Below, one piece after another: positions 9,334-22,953 of a stretch of DNA of 29,638 bases. The translations under genes were made by a program, and so were the position numbers. Below the pieces are notes generated by a model, which saw nothing but the letters and a program-made list of their open reading frames with translations, ran no database searches and had not been told where the DNA came from. Positions within the stretch are counted from its first letter, which is position 1. Each line of letters starts with the position of its first letter. Origin of the DNA: a virus; the IMG/VR virus record IMGVR_UViG_3300009537_000119, positions 1 to 29,638 of that record; one strand, 5' to 3'.

Positions 9334-9813
9334 TTATGCCTGGACCGTGAATGTCCCGGTCTCGACGTCTTTTAAATCATAGTGAAACATTAATCCGGCG
9401 TGTGGAGTGCCGGCGTACTCCAGGACCCCGGGTCCCTCATAAAAGAGAGCAGGGAGGGGAGGAGGCAAAAACGTTTTACAGGTCCCGCCGAGGTTCATAT
9501 CTTGAGCGAACATATTTCGAACTCGCTCGACGAACGGCCAGGACATTTTTTGTGCCTCGGCGAGCGAGAGCCCCAGAGAGAAATAAACCCAGATCTTGAC
9601 ATTATGCATAGCGACGGCCGGAGACCCCTCTCCGTAGACCTGCCCTCCTCCCTGGGTCCCAATCAGGGTCGAGGGAAACGAGAGCAGTTTTAACGGCCAT
9701 TGATTATAGCCATATACGACCCCCGCAGTCGGGATCTCGGCGGCGGCCTGAGAAGCAGTGTGGACGGTCTGCATATTCGTTTTTATTATGGGACCCCAGT
9801 CATCGACAGGCAT
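9334..9813 (-). CDS. Tail terminator / tail completion-like protein (gpU position)
   Basis: The 159-residue protein lies after the gp10-like connector protein and two genes before the tail tube protein, where siphoviruses encode the tail terminator that caps the tail tube. It has alternating strand and helix patterns (VKIWVYFSLGLSLAEAQKMSWPFVERVRNMFAQDM, ALFYEGPGVLEYAGTPHAGLMFHYDLKDVE) that resemble these small alpha/beta proteins. The start codon overlaps the previous stop as TAATG, with GGAGG about 8 bases upstream. The role is inferred from gene order and general features. Confidence 0.6.
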   Translation of the reverse strand: MPVDDWGPIIKTNMQTVHTASQAAAEIPTAGVVYGYNQWPLKLLSFPSTLIGTQGGGQVYGEGSPAVAMHNVKIWVYFSLGLSLAEAQKMSWPFVERVRNMFAQDMNLGGTCKTFLPPPLPALFYEGPGVLEYAGTPHAGLMFHYDLKDVETGTFTVQA

Positions 9814-10247
9814 TATTTAACCTCCAGATCTTTAACTAATTTCTGACCGGCCGAGGCGAACTGTTTTAAGACGAGCGGTCTCCGGTTGAGAAACATCCGA
9901 GCGACCTGTCCGGCCGTCCTCTGGCCCCGGCGAGACGTCGATCGATAATGATATCGGGTCGAGTCCTCGAGTGCTCGAGGATATGGAAATCCCCTCGAGC
10001 TCGTTGCGAATGTCCGGACGGCTCCCTGGAGAAATTTTGTTCCGGCGATATGCTCGACCTCCATTTTTAAAGTATTTTTATAATACGACGTGTCGACCGC
10101 AGCGACCTCTCGCCAACCAACATACATGATCCGGACGGAGGCCATCATCGCAGGGAATGCGATCTTGTCGGCTCGTTTTTCAGCATTCATTAACTTAAAA
10201 ATCTGCTGCTGTACTTTGGGATATTCGATGGTCATATTTAAAGACAT
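9813..10247 (-). CDS. HK97 gp10-like head-tail connector/tail completion protein
   Basis: The 144-residue basic protein has the character of the HK97 gp10 family: an N-terminal helix pair (IFKLMNAEKRADKIAFPAMMASVRIM), a middle part with VDTSYYKNTLKMEVEHI and GTKFLQGAVRT, and a basic C-terminal helix region. It sits between the gp6-like connector and the tail terminator, as in HK97-type phages. The ATG at 10247 lacks a clear ribosome binding site, while a possible promoter, TTGACA plus TATTAT, overlaps it; initiation at the second ATG (10235) is possible. The stop overlaps the next start. Confidence 0.7.
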   Translation of the reverse strand: MSLNMTIEYPKVQQQIFKLMNAEKRADKIAFPAMMASVRIMYVGWREVAAVDTSYYKNTLKMEVEHIAGTKFLQGAVRTFATSSRGFPYPRALEDSTRYHYRSTSRRGQRTAGQVARMFLNRRPLVLKQFASAGQKLVKDLEVK

Positions 10248-10275
10248 AATATTTTTATATAGTTAGGTGTGTCAA
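10246..10275 (-). promoter_or_regulatory. Candidate promoter over the gp10-like start
   Basis: TTGACA at 10275-10270 is followed after 18 bases by TATTAT at 10251-10246 in an A+T-rich gap. The predicted start would fall near 10239, inside the gene but before the second ATG at 10235, which would make a near-leaderless message. It is a motif match only. Confidence 0.3.
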
Positions 10276-12026: not shown

Positions 12027-12565
12027 CAGATCTGTTTCTCCGATCCACCAGGCAGGCGGTAAAATCTGGTTTTTATATACCGGAGATTATTCCCGATCAG
12101 GTCGATCGAGAGATGCGTCGTCGAGATCTCATCAAGTTTCCGGATCTCCTCTGCACATTCGGGACGATTGTAATTATCGACGATCACGATCCCGCCTGGT
12201 CTAACGATTTTCGGAGCGAGCCGGATCCACTCCGGCCGGTCGTCTTTCCATCCGTCGATTAAGAGGAGATCATAATTTCTCCCCTTAAAATAAACTGGTT
12301 TATGATCGAAAAACATCGTCACATTTCCAGGAGATTGATACTCGACGACTTGCGTCCACTCAGGATCATTATCGACGGCATGAACCGCTCGAACTCTCTC
12401 AGCAAACCAGAGAGTCGATCCTCCGCATCCGTGCTCGAGGATCATCCAGTCAGGACGGAGGAGACTTTCCAAATATAGAACGACGGCAGGATGCAGCCAG
12501 GGGACCGGATCCTCTCCGATCTGATCCGGCGTTTTCGGACGATACCATTTCTCATTATTGACCAT
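12026..12565 (-). CDS. Class I SAM-dependent methyltransferase-like protein
   Basis: The 179-residue protein shows a class I methyltransferase core: ILEHGCGGSTLWFAE at 42-56 (the glycine-rich SAM loop), an acidic end of strand two near D65 (HAVDNDPEW), LLLIDGW at 100-106 and GGIVIVDN near residue 125. There is no DPPY or cysteine DNA methyltransferase motif, so it is more likely to act on a sugar, small molecule or protein. It overlaps the upstream gene by 11 bases and the downstream glycosyltransferase by one base, with GGAGG 7 bases before the ATG. The three genes look like one cassette. Confidence 0.75.
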   Translation of the reverse strand: MVNNEKWYRPKTPDQIGEDPVPWLHPAVVLYLESLLRPDWMILEHGCGGSTLWFAERVRAVHAVDNDPEWTQVVEYQSPGNVTMFFDHKPVYFKGRNYDLLLIDGWKDDRPEWIRLAPKIVRPGGIVIVDNYNRPECAEEIRKLDEISTTHLSIDLIGNNLRYIKTRFYRLPGGSEKQI

Positions 12566-13841
12566 TGAGCATCCTCCGAGCTTTCTCGCCTCCCGCAGCT
12601 TTAATTCGCCGATCGAGTTCCATCATACATTGAGTATTAAATTCGTAGATACCCATGTGAGCCCCATATTTATACGCCTTGTCTGATTGATCATGTTGTA
12701 ATTTTCTCAACTGTTCGCCGGCTCGTTTCTGGAGGCCGGGATCTTTCTCGGCGAGTTTCCATGTATGCCAAACATACTCGGTTTTTCCGGATGCGTTCCA
12801 CATTTCAGCGGATAGCTCCTCCCCTTTCTGAGCGGTCCGGCCGGCCTGGAGTTCGTACTCGTCCCGAGCGAGGGTCGCATCCTCCCCGGATGCTTTCTGG
12901 ATCTCGTCGTATTTCCGGAGATATCTTTCAATCTCTCCGATCTGTCCGGCGACCTGTCCCTGCTTGATACAGTGATCCTGCCTCTGGATGATCATCTCGC
13001 CGGCGTCCTTATACTGCCGGTCCTTGATCAGGAGGAGGAGAACGTCCTTAATCTTGATATGCTCCCTCTCGAGTTGTTTAAATTTCTTATTCAGATCATC
13101 GAGGTTTTTCGAAATATATTCTTTATCGAGTGTGACCGTGTCTCCCTCATAGCCATAAATTAGGTGAGTGAACATCGTATGAGCCGAGTTTAATTTAACC
13201 TCGACCCCTTGGCCGGTTGCAATTCCTAACCAGAAAGCGAAACAAGATCTCTGATATTCATACTCGGTCCCGTTAGATAATTCGACCCCGTAGATCTCAA
13301 TCGTCGTAAATCCCAGATGCAGAGCGAGAGCGATCGCATAAGGAAACGTCGACGTAAAATATTCGAGTTGGATCTCCTTGTCGCTTTTGACGAGTTTGAT
13401 CGTCGAGAGATATTTTTCGACGATCTGATCATATGGATATTTGACGGAGTTCGGGACCTCTGGGACCTTGTCGATCATGTATATCGATCGGGATCCGTGA
13501 TCCTCTTGTAGCCATTTCCAGTGAAAAGGATCTGAGAAATTGAGCGGATTTTTAAAGACGGCCGGTTTATGGATCTGGAAAACTGCGTCCCATCTCCGGA
13601 CCCATCTCTCCGCTATATCGGGAAGTTCGAGCGTCTGGTTTTTATGTTTGATTTTTTTTCCGAGTTTCAATTTCCCGACCTGCTCGGATGTGAGGCCGAG
13701 TTCCTTGATCTTTTTATCATCCTGGACCCGACCATTCGGAGCCTCATTCAGAACCCAGATCGTTTTATCCGGATCATCGAACGGAGCATCGGCCCGAGTC
13801 TCCTTGTGAGATCCGACGATGCAGACTGTTTTATCAATCAT
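12555..13841 (-). CDS. Rossmann-like phage protein with C-terminal coiled coil
   Basis: The 428-residue protein has two parts. Residues 1-240 look like an alpha/beta domain: VCIVGSHKETRADAPFDD, KTIWVLNEA, ERWVRRWDAVFQIHKP, SIYMIDKVPEVPNSVKYPY, YFTSTFPYAIALALHLGFTTIEIYGVEL. This resembles phage proteins with a sialyltransferase- or DUF115-like Rossmann core that travel with glycosylation genes. Residues 245-400 are helical and charged, probably a coiled coil. It heads the methyltransferase/glycosyltransferase cassette and has a hairpin plus shared motif in its leader. I do not recognise a defined activity; a role in making or transferring a virion sugar is inferred from neighbours. Confidence 0.65.
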   Translation of the reverse strand: MIDKTVCIVGSHKETRADAPFDDPDKTIWVLNEAPNGRVQDDKKIKELGLTSEQVGKLKLGKKIKHKNQTLELPDIAERWVRRWDAVFQIHKPAVFKNPLNFSDPFHWKWLQEDHGSRSIYMIDKVPEVPNSVKYPYDQIVEKYLSTIKLVKSDKEIQLEYFTSTFPYAIALALHLGFTTIEIYGVELSNGTEYEYQRSCFAFWLGIATGQGVEVKLNSAHTMFTHLIYGYEGDTVTLDKEYISKNLDDLNKKFKQLEREHIKIKDVLLLLIKDRQYKDAGEMIIQRQDHCIKQGQVAGQIGEIERYLRKYDEIQKASGEDATLARDEYELQAGRTAQKGEELSAEMWNASGKTEYVWHTWKLAEKDPGLQKRAGEQLRKLQHDQSDKAYKYGAHMGIYEFNTQCMMELDRRIKAAGGEKARRMLNGQ

Positions 13842-14462: not shown

Positions 14463-15746
14463 TTATGAACTGGTCGACATTACGACGAACGGGCTCTGAG
14501 TGTTGGATCCCTTGAAGGGGGTCACGGCAGTTCTCCAGGCCGGTTGTCCGTCGATCCTATAGGTGAACTTATAGGTCATCTCGTCGGTTTCGAAACGAAC
14601 ATGGATGGACTCGGATCCCTTGACCGCTCCCTTATCAATGGCAAGATACTGATCCATAGATGCGAGCATGAGATCTCCAGTGGTCCCCAGGGTTGCGGCG
14701 TATTCGATATCGATGACGGGGAGACCTTTTAAGCGAGCGAACGGAGCATCGGCGAAACCTCCGGGCGGCATATAAACCTCGTTCGTGAGGGTCATACTTT
14801 CAAGGACGGGGTGTATATCCTGGTTTGCAAACCAGACATAATTCCCGGCTCCCCCCCATCGGCGAGAGTACATGTTCGAGATATCTCGGGGAGTGATGGT
14901 TGACGCATTGATCCGAGTGACGGAGATCAGACAGCCGGAGTTCATAATTCCGAGCGGTTTCCCGACCCCGTCTCCTTCGTAGATCGCATCCTCGACCATA
15001 AACTTGAGCTCGTCGGCGACGGTCCTCTGTAACCAGGCGGCGAGAGTGGTCGTGTCCATCAGGAGTTCGTCGGTTGCATAGGCCAGGGCCGCAACCTTTT
15101 TTAACTTGAGATCGATCTGGGAAAATGAGGGTTGAGAGTTCGTGATCGAACTGCCCTCGGCGACCCAATAACCCCGGATCCCGCCCCATCTGGAGCCGGC
15201 GGCCCTGGAGGTCTCGTCAACCGTGTTAAAGCTCATCGAGTTTGAGGTCGGTCCGAGCGGATATGGATCGACCCGATTGAGGATCTCGCCGATGGACCAC
15301 ATTTTTTCTTTGAGGGTTCCGTCGACCGTAGTCGTCACGAGAAAACCACCTTGAGCGGGATCGGCCTCCTCCATTCCTGCTCCGGCTTTGACGGCCAGCA
15401 GACGGGGATCTACATTATGCGGAGAGAGTGCAGCAGATTTTACGGCCAGGAAAAACTCTCCGTCGGTTTCCCAGGGTTGGTCGCCCTCGTCAGTGACGAC
15501 GGTAATCCCGGACCCGGGATCGACGGGCGGAGCAGATTCGGCGACTGCCTTGACTGCCTCGGTGACCGCAGTCTTAACAATTTCCCCGACATCCTCGAGA
15601 GAGAATGACGGTTCGACGACCAGATCCTCGATCTCCCATTTAGTACCCTTGAGAGCATAGCGGATTTGATCGTCATTTAGGTCGGCGACTTTCACACTTA
15701 CCAATTTAGCAAAATGCTCGAGCGCCTCCTGTTTTGTTTTAAACAT
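14463..15746 (-). CDS. Major capsid protein from an internal start
   Basis: An in-frame ATG at 15746 inside the fusion gene is preceded by AAGGAG with a 7-base spacer, one of the best ribosome binding sites in the window, although it lies within coding sequence (codons for TRSNT). Initiation here gives 427 residues starting MFKTKQEALEHF, the expected size of an HK97-fold capsid precursor with its delta domain. The fusion would supply a few protease copies while the internal start supplies the roughly 400 capsid subunits a head needs. The start is seen in the sequence; its use is inferred. Confidence 0.7.
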   Translation of the reverse strand: MFKTKQEALEHFAKLVSVKVADLNDDQIRYALKGTKWEIEDLVVEPSFSLEDVGEIVKTAVTEAVKAVAESAPPVDPGSGITVVTDEGDQPWETDGEFFLAVKSAALSPHNVDPRLLAVKAGAGMEEADPAQGGFLVTTTVDGTLKEKMWSIGEILNRVDPYPLGPTSNSMSFNTVDETSRAAGSRWGGIRGYWVAEGSSITNSQPSFSQIDLKLKKVAALAYATDELLMDTTTLAAWLQRTVADELKFMVEDAIYEGDGVGKPLGIMNSGCLISVTRINASTITPRDISNMYSRRWGGAGNYVWFANQDIHPVLESMTLTNEVYMPPGGFADAPFARLKGLPVIDIEYAATLGTTGDLMLASMDQYLAIDKGAVKGSESIHVRFETDEMTYKFTYRIDGQPAWRTAVTPFKGSNTQSPFVVMSTSS

Positions 15747-16466
15747 AGTATTACTCCTTGTTTGAGTAGATTTTACAGGGATTGGATCCTTATCTGCCGG
15801 CATCGTCTCATCGACGATCTCGCCGGCGACCTCTGGATCAGTTGTTTTCCTGCTTGTGTTTTTATCGCTCATAAATGCCTTGAGCGGTATCACTGAATTT
15901 GTGTCCCGATATTCGTTCGGGGTGGGCGTGAGACTTGCATCCAGGCCTAACGGCCATTTAGTAATTTTCCAGGACCCCCAGTTGAGAGCATCGTCCTCGT
16001 CCTCACTATTGGCGACGTGCTCATAATCGACCAGGTGGTAAGCGGTCCCACTGGACCAGCCGAGTTTCTTTTTTAACCCCAGGTCGGCGATCATTTTCTC
16101 GTATTCGTTTCTCATCTGGATAACGACCTCAGCGAAAATGCCGACCTCGTCGAGTTTGAGTTCTGCTTTCCCGAGAGTTTTCCGATATGCAGGGATCGTA
16201 TATTCCCCAGAGGCAAGCGGGTATCGATGATGGAAATAAACCTCGGAGGATTTCAGATCTCCGAAATCTGTCTCAGGAGTGAAAAAATCTCCGGAGAGAT
16301 CGGTCTCGTCCGGAGATCCAAACCGGACCAGATATCCCCCGAGCAAAACTTTTCCGTCGTCCTGCTTGACGGCCTTGATCGGGTCCCCGATATGGATGAG
16401 CGTCTCGTCCGGTCCCAGGTCCTCGAACCTCGACTTTATATTTATGCCTGTTCGTTTGATGAGCAT
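14463..16466 (-). CDS. Prohead protease fused to major capsid protein
   Basis: One uninterrupted frame of 667 residues holds two proteins normally encoded apart. Residues 1-220 form an HK97-type prohead protease: LLGGYLVRFGSPDETDLSGD, the histidine motif YFHHRYP at 77-83 and the serine motif GWSSGT at 136-141. Residues 241-667 form an HK97-fold capsid protein: a helical scaffold-like delta region (about 241-330), FNTVDETSRAAGSRWGGIRGYWVAEGSSI, KKVAALAYATDELLMDT, the EGDGVGKPLGIMN loop and a VHVRFETDEMTYKFTYRIDG-type C-terminal strand. A strong internal start at 15746 can also make free capsid protein. Scaffold removal by the fused protease is the inferred role. Confidence 0.9.
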   Translation of the reverse strand: MLIKRTGINIKSRFEDLGPDETLIHIGDPIKAVKQDDGKVLLGGYLVRFGSPDETDLSGDFFTPETDFGDLKSSEVYFHHRYPLASGEYTIPAYRKTLGKAELKLDEVGIFAEVVIQMRNEYEKMIADLGLKKKLGWSSGTAYHLVDYEHVANSEDEDDALNWGSWKITKWPLGLDASLTPTPNEYRDTNSVIPLKAFMSDKNTSRKTTDPEVAGEIVDETMPADKDPIPVKSTQTRSNTMFKTKQEALEHFAKLVSVKVADLNDDQIRYALKGTKWEIEDLVVEPSFSLEDVGEIVKTAVTEAVKAVAESAPPVDPGSGITVVTDEGDQPWETDGEFFLAVKSAALSPHNVDPRLLAVKAGAGMEEADPAQGGFLVTTTVDGTLKEKMWSIGEILNRVDPYPLGPTSNSMSFNTVDETSRAAGSRWGGIRGYWVAEGSSITNSQPSFSQIDLKLKKVAALAYATDELLMDTTTLAAWLQRTVADELKFMVEDAIYEGDGVGKPLGIMNSGCLISVTRINASTITPRDISNMYSRRWGGAGNYVWFANQDIHPVLESMTLTNEVYMPPGGFADAPFARLKGLPVIDIEYAATLGTTGDLMLASMDQYLAIDKGAVKGSESIHVRFETDEMTYKFTYRIDGQPAWRTAVTPFKGSNTQSPFVVMSTSS

Positions 16467-16479
16467 TATTTCTCCTTAT

Positions 16480-16531
16480 AAAAAAACGACGACCGGGACC
16501 CGAATTGATTTTTTCGGATCGCAGTCGTCGT
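16480..16531 (-). terminator. Intrinsic terminator in the capsid gene leader
   Basis: The outer stem pairs ACGACGAC with GTCGTCGT (16524-16531 with 16486-16493); an inner stem pairs ATCCGAA with TTCGGGT around loop AAAATCAA. Seven U residues follow on the minus strand (16486-16480). It ends 14 bases before the capsid fusion ATG, so capsid expression needs readthrough or antitermination. Confidence 0.75.
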
Positions 16532-16580
16532 CCCGGATCTCTTATCCGGTCGGTTCTGCCTCGTAATTTTATTTGATTAT
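16480..16580 (-). ncRNA. Terminated leader RNA upstream of the capsid operon
   Basis: Transcription from the promoter at 16587-16614 should start near 16580 and meet an intrinsic terminator ending at 16480, giving an RNA of about 100 bases that stops before the capsid fusion gene's ribosome binding site. Within it, CCGGGAC (16536-16530) can pair with GTCCCGG (16499-16493), a fold that conflicts with the terminator stem and could act as an antiterminator. It may be a free small RNA or an attenuator of capsid expression. Both readings are inferences from motifs. Confidence 0.5.
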
Positions 16581-16586
16581 GGTTTC

Positions 16587-16614
16587 ATATTAGCATAAAA
16601 TTATGTATTGTCAA
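16587..16614 (-). promoter_or_regulatory. Promoter with consensus -35 upstream of the capsid gene
   Basis: A perfect TTGACA (16614-16609) is followed by a 16-base spacer and TAATAT (16592-16587), with a TG one base upstream (TGCTAATAT) forming an extended -10. The spacer is A+T-rich. It is the best sigma-70-type match seen in the window and faces the protease-capsid gene. Decamer repeats lie about 80-100 bases upstream. Confidence 0.65.
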
Positions 16615-16735: not shown

Positions 16736-17437
16736 TCATGTGACGAGCTCGAGCTCGGTCCAGCAGCGGTCGTTCGGATGAGCCGGTATCTCGGCGACCG
16801 TCCATCCCTCCGATCTGAGTTTCTCGTCGTTCGGCTCGCAGATGACGCAAACATTATTATCTTTCATCGTGTACCATCTCGGCTCGGTCAGGATCCCGTC
16901 GATCTCAAGTTTCTCAGCATAGATCCGTTTTCCGTTCTCGAAACCCCGGGTCACTTCCGTGACGGCGATCGTCTGAGCTCGTCGGGGAGTGAACATCGAG
17001 GAGAGATCTCCGATGAGGAGATCCAGGTTCCGATCAGGAGTATCGAAATAATTCCGGAGTGCGTTTTGTAAATGGTTCCGAGTATTCTCATTGAGATCGG
17101 AGACCATGTTAAAACCATAGGTACGAGCCCAGTTCGAGGCCTCGGCGACGATCTCATCATGATCGATCTCGATACCCAAGGAGAGAGCCTCGGTCTCGGA
17201 TGCGGAGACGGCCATCCCGGTTAACATCGGGACCAGGAAAGCGAGAAAGATCCCGGACCATTTCTCCCAGAATGCCGGAGGAGGAGGAGAGGGATCCTCG
17301 TCTCCCATCTCGTCGAGCAGGTCATCGAATTGAGCCTCGAACTGTTCGCCAAAAAAGAGAGCGATATCCTCCTCGGCCTGATCTTTCGATTGACTGTCCG
17401 GATCTGTTTTCCCTGATCTGCTCGTTCGTTTTAGCAT
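16736..17437 (-). CDS. Mu gpF-like minor head / head morphogenesis protein
   Basis: The 233-residue protein carries the C-terminal Mu gpF / SPP1 gp7 type signature: AQTIAVTEVTRGFENGKRIYAEKL at about 157-180, WYTMKDNNVCVICEPNDE at about 191-208 with its Cys pair, and AHPNDRCW near residue 223. The N-terminus is acidic (AEEDIALFFGEQFEAQFDDLLDEMGDED) and is followed by a hydrophobic stretch FLAFLVPMLTGMAVSA. These proteins are packed in the head or attached to the portal. The family is often near 300 residues or more, so this is a short member. It lies between a LamG-like gene and the capsid operon. Confidence 0.85.
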   Translation of the reverse strand: MLKRTSRSGKTDPDSQSKDQAEEDIALFFGEQFEAQFDDLLDEMGDEDPSPPPPAFWEKWSGIFLAFLVPMLTGMAVSASETEALSLGIEIDHDEIVAEASNWARTYGFNMVSDLNENTRNHLQNALRNYFDTPDRNLDLLIGDLSSMFTPRRAQTIAVTEVTRGFENGKRIYAEKLEIDGILTEPRWYTMKDNNVCVICEPNDEKLRSEGWTVAEIPAHPNDRCWTELELVT

Positions 17438-22331: not shown

Positions 22332-22848
22332 TTTCGATCGGGCCTCCGTCCGGACCGGAGACCTCTCTCCGATCTGTAAATAATTTGAAATGTTTTCCTA
22401 TATGCACGAGTGCCTGCATTTGATCATGCCATTCGATGATCATCGTCCCTCGTTTCGTGCTCGATACTCTCTTGATGAGGTGAGAATATCCGTCGGTTTT
22501 GAGCGCCTCGAAATCGACTTTCATCGCATAGCCGGCGAGATACTTTCCGTCCTTTTTGTTCGACTCGTAGATCGGGACCTGCTCAATATAGTTCGCAATA
22601 TCGAACCCTCGAGCCATAGATCCCAGGCGAGAGAGCACCTCGTTCGCATCCATGATCGTTTCGGAGATCCGTTTCTGGATCTCCTCCCGTATGAGAGGTT
22701 TTCTCAGGTTTTCGCTCCCGACTGACTGTAACGTCGTATAGTTCCCTTTATATCCCGCTTTCCTGGACGCCTGGGTGGCATTCCAGGACTGGAGATAATA
22801 TTCGACAAACAGTTTTTGTTTATCTGTGAGCTTTCTTTTCTTTGCCAT
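22234..22848 (-). CDS. terS: Terminase small subunit
   Basis: The 204-residue protein has the classic small terminase start: KKRKLTDKQKLFVEYYLQSWNATQASRKAGYKGNYTTLQSVGSENLRKPLIREEIQKRI, a DNA-binding helix-turn-helix that recognises the packaging site. The rest contains a helical oligomerisation section and a charged C-terminus (DDKTLTDEERARRVAAILDRGRDRRDRPSDK). It overlaps the large subunit gene. The ATG at 22848 has a weak ribosome binding site. Its leader contains a GC-rich hairpin and an extended -10 box further upstream. Confidence 0.88.
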   Translation of the reverse strand: MAKKRKLTDKQKLFVEYYLQSWNATQASRKAGYKGNYTTLQSVGSENLRKPLIREEIQKRISETIMDANEVLSRLGSMARGFDIANYIEQVPIYESNKKDGKYLAGYAMKVDFEALKTDGYSHLIKRVSSTKRGTMIIEWHDQMQALVHIGKHFKLFTDRREVSGPDGGPIEIDDKTLTDEERARRVAAILDRGRDRRDRPSDK

Positions 22849-22879
22849 CGTTTAACCATAATAGCATATTTAAAACCTA

Positions 22880-22907
22880 ATGACCCGGGGAGGAGGTCCC
22901 GGGTCAT
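22880..22907 (-). promoter_or_regulatory. GC-rich hairpin in the terminase operon leader
   Basis: ATGACCCGGG (22880-22889) pairs with CCCGGGTCAT (22898-22907) across an 8-base loop. On the minus strand it is followed by TAGGTTTTAA, only a weak U tract. It stands between the candidate promoter at 22945-22953 and the small terminase gene, so it may be an attenuator, a weak terminator or a stability element. Confidence 0.55.
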
Positions 22908-22944
22908 AGTCTAGGAGGGGAAAGAAATGTTACGACGCACTCAC

Positions 22945-22953
22945 ATTATAGCA
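22945..22953 (-). promoter_or_regulatory. Extended -10 box for the packaging operon
   Basis: TGCTATAAT on the minus strand is a perfect extended -10 (TGn-TATAAT). The TAA of the TATAAT is the stop codon of the DNA methyltransferase gene. No -35 match is seen at 16-18 bases. A start near 22938 would leave a roughly 90-base leader before the small terminase gene. Confidence 0.5.

Follow-up and report, generated by a model that had tools for sequence, protein, structure and literature searches.

Detailed knowledge of late operons behind a terminator gate comes from a small number of phages and of phage-like gene clusters in proteobacteria. In the pR'-tR' region of phages lambda and 21, promoter, short leader, intrinsic terminator and late genes follow one another on one strand. 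In Q systems a pause element resembling a −10 hexamer must lie in the initially transcribed region, and a factor site is needed between the −35 and −10 elements (PMC6606751). For AlpA of Pseudomonas aeruginosa, two reports describe a promoter, an intrinsic terminator before the first ORF, a promoter-loaded factor that bypasses it, and a binding motif between −35 and −10 (PMC7969949, PMC9371919). The phage-like head cluster of the Caulobacter gene transfer agent is opened by antitermination through GafYZ, with a palindrome between −10 and −35 and a terminator after the first gene (PMC11150451). The put RNA of HK022 is about 70 nt long, has two stem-loops and carries its signal towards the 5′ end of the transcript (PMC9378689).

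The locus analysed here belongs to an uncultivated phage whose record is 29,638 bases long, and "the window" below means this whole stretch. A predicted promoter, a start motif (family consensus AACTRAATAR), a short leader and an intrinsic terminator stand there immediately before a prohead protease-capsid gene. Our analysis suggests, with about even probability, that this feature is the start of a late head operon, where a terminator gate like that of lambda pR'-tR' with Q would be opened by an antitermination factor.

The order of elements is that of lambda and 21, and the layout is that of AlpA. Opening of a head cluster by antitermination, as described for GafYZ, is also what we propose here, and some of the promoters here, like that of the GafYZ system, may carry a palindrome between −10 and −35. 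As in the Q gate, the candidate signal lies in the initially transcribed region, and like that of put it is near the 5′ end of the transcript. From the start region to the U tract there are about 190 nt in lambda and about 57–144 nt here. Unlike the lambda/21 system, AACTRAATAR lacks a NANNAT-type pause element, no Q gene was recognised in the 37 records searched, and the gate precedes capsid or scaffold genes rather than lysis genes, with its terminator near the Shine-Dalgarno sequence. The AlpA motif lies between −35 and −10, whereas here the spacer varies and conservation is seen at the start site; the GafYZ terminator follows the first gene, whereas the one here precedes it. The conserved two-stem structure of put is absent from the present leaders, which cannot be aligned and several of which are nearly unstructured before the terminator.

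Gene order in the window

All identified large genes of the window lie on the minus strand, in the order replication loader, methyltransferase, small and large terminase, portal, head-morphogenesis gene, protease-capsid fusion and further genes. The gated gene (14463..16466, minus strand, ATG at 16466) encodes a prohead protease-major capsid fusion of 667 aa. Its capsid part matched PF05065 in the Pfam search (residues 373–651, E 3e-34). The N-terminal part had no Pfam match of its own and aligned with the N-terminal part of a relative, L029, which itself scored E 0.00047 and 20.8 bits against Peptidase_S78, where the cut-off is 21. The PF05065 match and this alignment bear out the protease-capsid label that the initial annotation had given to the gene.

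The gene upstream of the gate (16736..17437, minus strand) is head morphogenesis/portal C-terminal-like (phrog_2662, 1.1e-13; phrog_2468, 1.7e-7), and the feature lies between the end of this gene at 16736 and the capsid ATG at 16466. A transcript of the upstream gene would also run into the terminator. Directly behind the capsid gene, a 428-aa protein (12555-13841, minus strand) with a Rossmann-like motif at its start is common to 8 of 37 records, and is named by neither Pfam nor PHROGs.

Promoter, leader and terminator

The putative promoter, on the minus strand, consists of a −35 hexamer TTGACA (16609..16614) that matches the consensus in 6/6 positions, a spacer of 16 nt, and a −10 hexamer TAATAT (16587..16592) extended by a TG one base upstream, whose position agrees with that in relatives. 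From promoter geometry, transcription would be expected to start at 16580, 7 nt after the −10 hexamer. The conserved start motif, in its window form AATCAAATAA (16569..16578, minus strand), sits 8 nt after the −10 and was identified by a motif search against shuffled sequences and in other phages. This motif beside the expected start is the most informative feature of the locus, and was absent from the initial annotation. The window contains 26 promoter-like sites, compared with 20.1 ± 4.9 in shuffles; the promoter match alone is therefore within chance, while its recurrence in relatives exceeds chance. A short inverted repeat in the spacer, CATAA-TT-TTATG (16594..16605, minus strand), was read from the sequence without a control; its arms are only 5 bp, and it may be a binding site or a chance occurrence.

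The intrinsic terminator hairpin (16485..16532, minus strand; about −29 to −30 kcal/mol in computed folds) has a 19-bp stem of 11 pairs, a C:C mismatch and 8 pairs, with a loop of 8 nt. It runs into a U7 tract (T7 at 16480..16486), which is followed by the ribosome-binding site AAGGAG (16472..16477), and 13 bases lie between the last T of the tract and the A of the capsid ATG. A smaller hairpin upstream, CCGGAT-AAGAG-ATCCGG (16533..16549, minus strand), was predicted by folding and is not conserved. The 117-nt leader folded to −39 kcal/mol, against −24.6 ± 3.3 kcal/mol for shuffled sequences (z −4.33), and none of 200 shuffles was as stable. Sequence and fold thus agree with what had been noticed originally, namely that a TTGACA promoter runs into a strong U7 hairpin just before the capsid gene. 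A consensus terminator scan of the window did not list the hairpin at 16485..16532, probably because that scan is limited to simple stems with short loops.

There is a second, weaker promoter-hairpin-gene arrangement at 22848-22951 (minus strand), where an extended −10 promoter (TGCTATAAT) precedes a 10-bp G+C-rich hairpin, a weak T tract and the ATG of the small terminase, without the start motif. A 144-aa gene (9813-10247) has its predicted ATG overlapping with a TTGACA-N18-TATTAT promoter (10235-10275, minus strand); an in-frame ATG lies a few codons downstream, which suggests a leaderless transcript or a start to be re-annotated.

Recurrence in related protease-capsid loci

The capsid protein of the window had no close relatives among the viral contigs and only distant ones among the phages. 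The large terminase was up to 66% identical to that of viral contigs, but no capsid match over the fused gene was present at those loci, and no phage record matched. Through the portal protein a single distant contig, L027, was reached, whose capsid is 27% identical to that of the window, and the L027 capsid led to L029 (67% identity between these two capsids). In L027 and L029 the order of promoter, unrelated leader, strong terminator and capsid start is the same as in the window, and the spacing is similar. The gate promoters of both (L027 4440-4475; L029 4570-4610) contain GAACNNNNGTTC, which has the pattern of the Gram-positive SOS box, so that in these phages the short RNA or the late operon may be damage-inducible.

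A search with the aligned capsids of the window, L027 and L029 gave 51 viral and 4 genome loci. Loci that were duplicates or lacked the fused gene (L001, L002, L028, L030-L033, L046 and L048) were left out before counting. A strong terminator, meaning −14 kcal/mol or better and ending no more than 50 nt ahead of an in-frame start, preceded the gene in 21 of the 56 related protease/capsid loci (including L069 and L084, which are weak and without the motif), against 40 of 1121 ORFs from 37 element-bearing records, where the 40 positives include protease/capsid genes. Of the remaining loci, 33 had no terminator and 2 were unclear; L034 and L035 are near copies. This indicates that the gate is common in this protease-capsid family, though by no means present in all its members. 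In the gated loci the terminator ends 0–39 nt before the start codon, and most stems have energies of −20 to −44 kcal/mol and tails rich in U.

Upstream of the terminator, the start motif was found in 13 of the 21 loci; in L038, L040, L041, L044, L063 and L073 the terminator is strong but there is no strict match to the motif. Among the 31 leaders compared, only those of L206 and L229 could be aligned with each other, so that the motif is kept while the remaining leader is not. As to the idea that the same leader might be met in relatives, it is the order of promoter, terminator and gene that recurs, and not, save in this one pair, the leader sequence. No close relative of the L231 capsid or of the L133 DNA was found among named phages and plasmids.

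The start motif

An unsupervised motif search was performed on the 190 nt before the terminator (87 nt in one case) of 18 loci, without promoter positions being supplied. It returned the consensus TAACTGAATAAC with an LLR of 63.7, compared with 38.2 ± 2.7 and a maximum of 42.6 in 12 dinucleotide-shuffled sets; these 18 leaders had been chosen for having a terminator. In 10 of 13 loci the motif is preceded by a −10-like hexamer that ends 5–9 nt before it, compared with 19 of 104 control bins nearby (p 4e-5), and the motif thus falls at the expected transcription start. In L047 and L037 the distance between the motif and the best TATAAT is at least about 37 nt. The strict pattern occurred exactly once per record in the 20 matching records out of 30 scanned, several of them being fragments.

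A NANNAT pause-type element within the first 25 nt was not enriched, being present in 42% of the 31 leaders and in 49% ± 9% of shuffles. A sigma-dependent −10-like pause hexamer in the motif was accordingly rejected; what stands at the start is the conserved motif described above, and we therefore liken the locus to the Q gate without filing it as a member. In the literature searched, which was partly judged by titles, no description of this motif as a late phage promoter signal was found.

Pattern scan of IMG/VR

Because the motif definition began with terminator-selected loci, a pattern scan with a reversed control carries most weight as a test. In IMG/VR, the pattern TATAAT-N6-AACTGAATAA matched 97 contigs, a second pattern, in which the −10 was extended and the variable base was written as R, matched 81, and the reversed-motif control matched 78. 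A terminator (−12 kcal/mol or better, no further than 220 nt away) was present after 15 of the 97 matches, 11 of 76 new ones with the second pattern, and none of the 78 controls (Fisher p 1.4e-4 for 15/97 against 0/78, computed on redundant counts). With near copies removed, the counts were 12/53, 9/45 and 0/48, and in contigs with a GC content of at least 0.42 they were 13/19, 9/16 and 0/6. Other TATAAT sites in the same contigs were followed by a terminator in 6 of 48 cases. Many of the 97 and 81 matches are AT-rich and terminator-free, and are probably due to chance.

Several of the genes behind these matches, in unrelated phages, are head or terminase genes. Head scaffold genes were found in L131, L155 and L158 (by PHROGs) and in L242, whose hairpin has a weak T tract; protease-capsid fusions were found in L102, L163, L206, L208, L229 and L231, a small terminase in L263 and a portal gene in L211. 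Some of the gated genes were unnamed by PHROGs.

Three of the four genome relatives of the capsid are in Chloroflexota MAGs, and the gate is absent at those loci. The motif pattern matched 2 of 400 Chloroflexota genomes, against 1 for the reversed control, with a terminator at neither match; the motif scan thus gave no support to Chloroflexota as the host.

Two observations concern individual contigs. In L155 (2076-2220), two hairpins of one leader have nearly identical loops (AGTCCGANAGGCCCG), and a similar AGTCCGAGA is present in the leader hairpin of L242. In L062 (2340-2400), the sequence that immediately precedes the gate resembles a tRNA (GTTCGAATC), but ARAGORN calls no tRNA there.

Proposed alternative pairing in the leaders

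The initial annotation had proposed that pairing of CCGGGAC (16536-16530) with GTCCCGG (16499-16493) would disrupt the terminator. Both segments are present in the window and are complementary. Forced-pair, nascent-RNA and leader-only folds were used to obtain the energies. The forced pairing gave −21.3 kcal/mol against −38.8 kcal/mol, that is, 17.5 kcal/mol worse than the terminator fold, and even in a nascent RNA ending at GTCCCGG the pairing was not preferred. In 30 leaders (L119 was left out, its leader being too short), pairing of upstream RNA with the terminator arms was not clearly above that in shuffled leaders, with a mean z of −0.47 ± 0.24 for the 5′ arm and 0.00 ± 0.19 for the 3′ arm. 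On the energy in the window and the comparison of leaders, CCGGGAC/GTCCCGG was rejected as the antiterminator. Of the suggested attenuator before the capsid gene, the promoter-driven terminator was retained, and it is repeated in related and unrelated phages; regulation by alternative pairing was not.

Discussion

Anatomy, recurrence, motif and placement before head genes have been computed. From them we infer the activity of the promoter, termination by default, factor-dependent readthrough and a role of the motif in loading. A host sigma-70-type RNA polymerase would initiate at the extended −10 promoter and copy the start motif. By default it would halt at the terminator about 100 nt on and release a short RNA, and transcripts from the upstream packaging genes would stop at the same terminator. 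Late in infection, an antitermination factor, probably encoded by the phage, would join the polymerase while it is at the promoter and start motif; thus modified, the polymerase would pass the terminator into the capsid gene and the genes behind it. The short distance from terminator to start codon leaves little room for a second promoter, so that expression of the head gene would need readthrough. Since competing RNA structures fail to explain the passage, modification of the polymerase remains as the explanation.

An unlikely alternative is that the unit is a separate trans-acting small RNA with a promoter, a single-stranded conserved 5′ seed and a terminator, whose place before a head gene would be incidental. 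A conserved 5′ tail and a 3′ terminator on an RNA of about 57–144 nt are indeed the anatomy of base-pairing small RNAs, promoter and terminator of its own are predicted, and there is one strict motif copy per matching record. But the body is not conserved between L027 and L029, whose leaders are unalignable beside their similar capsids, and the terminator recurs near the Shine-Dalgarno sequence and start codon of a head gene, a position for which an RNA acting in trans has no need. The motif, moreover, had no unusual complementarity to E. coli 16S, 23S or 5S rRNA.

It is rather improbable that the hairpin is a fixed leaky terminator or insulator, shielding the head genes from upstream transcription while letting a constant fraction of polymerases pass. 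Such an element requires no factor, and none was found in the 37 records, yet hairpins of this strength (mostly −20 to −44 kcal/mol, with tails rich in U) ought to halt the majority of polymerases before a highly expressed gene, and the conserved start motif would be left unexplained.

Quite improbable, too, is a protein-free antitermination RNA like HK022 put, in which the nascent leader would bind the polymerase and suppress the terminator. The motif is near the 5′ end of the RNA and common to unrelated phages, as if a conserved host partner read it. Compared with put (PMC9378689), the gap between motif and terminator can here be as short as about 25 nt and free of stable structure, as in L050, L051, L158 and L211, and if the RNA acted by itself the terminator would serve no purpose. 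An attenuator or riboswitch of the classical kind, with an alternative leader hairpin competing with the terminator, is very improbable despite the complementary segments of the window, given the energies above, the lack of a clear excess of competing pairs, and the absence of any Rfam match at gathering score in the window and 15 relatives.

A further proposal can be made, although we consider it somewhat doubtful. AACTRAATAR could be a loading signal for processive antitermination that is new, widely shared and independent of Q, N and put. Its reader would be something conserved, either RNA polymerase or a host elongation factor, alone or together with a phage protein, and the signal would form the single late-gene gate of many unrelated lineages of uncultivated tailed phages. 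If the gate reading is right, the same gating logic, with a start-site signal not met in the literature searched, would control head genes in many phages without a cultured member, the motif module would serve as a sequence tag for late operons in metagenomes, and it would offer a direct route to a new antiterminator.

No shared or recognisable candidate for an antiterminator gene was found in the 37 records, many of which are fragments, and none of the 10 small genes of the window matched an antiterminator PHROG. The protein may be divergent, the contigs may be incomplete, or the factor may be of the host. Inverted repeats were seen in the spacer of 9 of 47 promoter rows, a count made without a control. 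In the promoters of L208, L231, L040 and L037, inverted repeats of 6–9 bp extend over the −35 and spacer region with sequences that differ between the phages; these are candidate operators or antiterminator sites.
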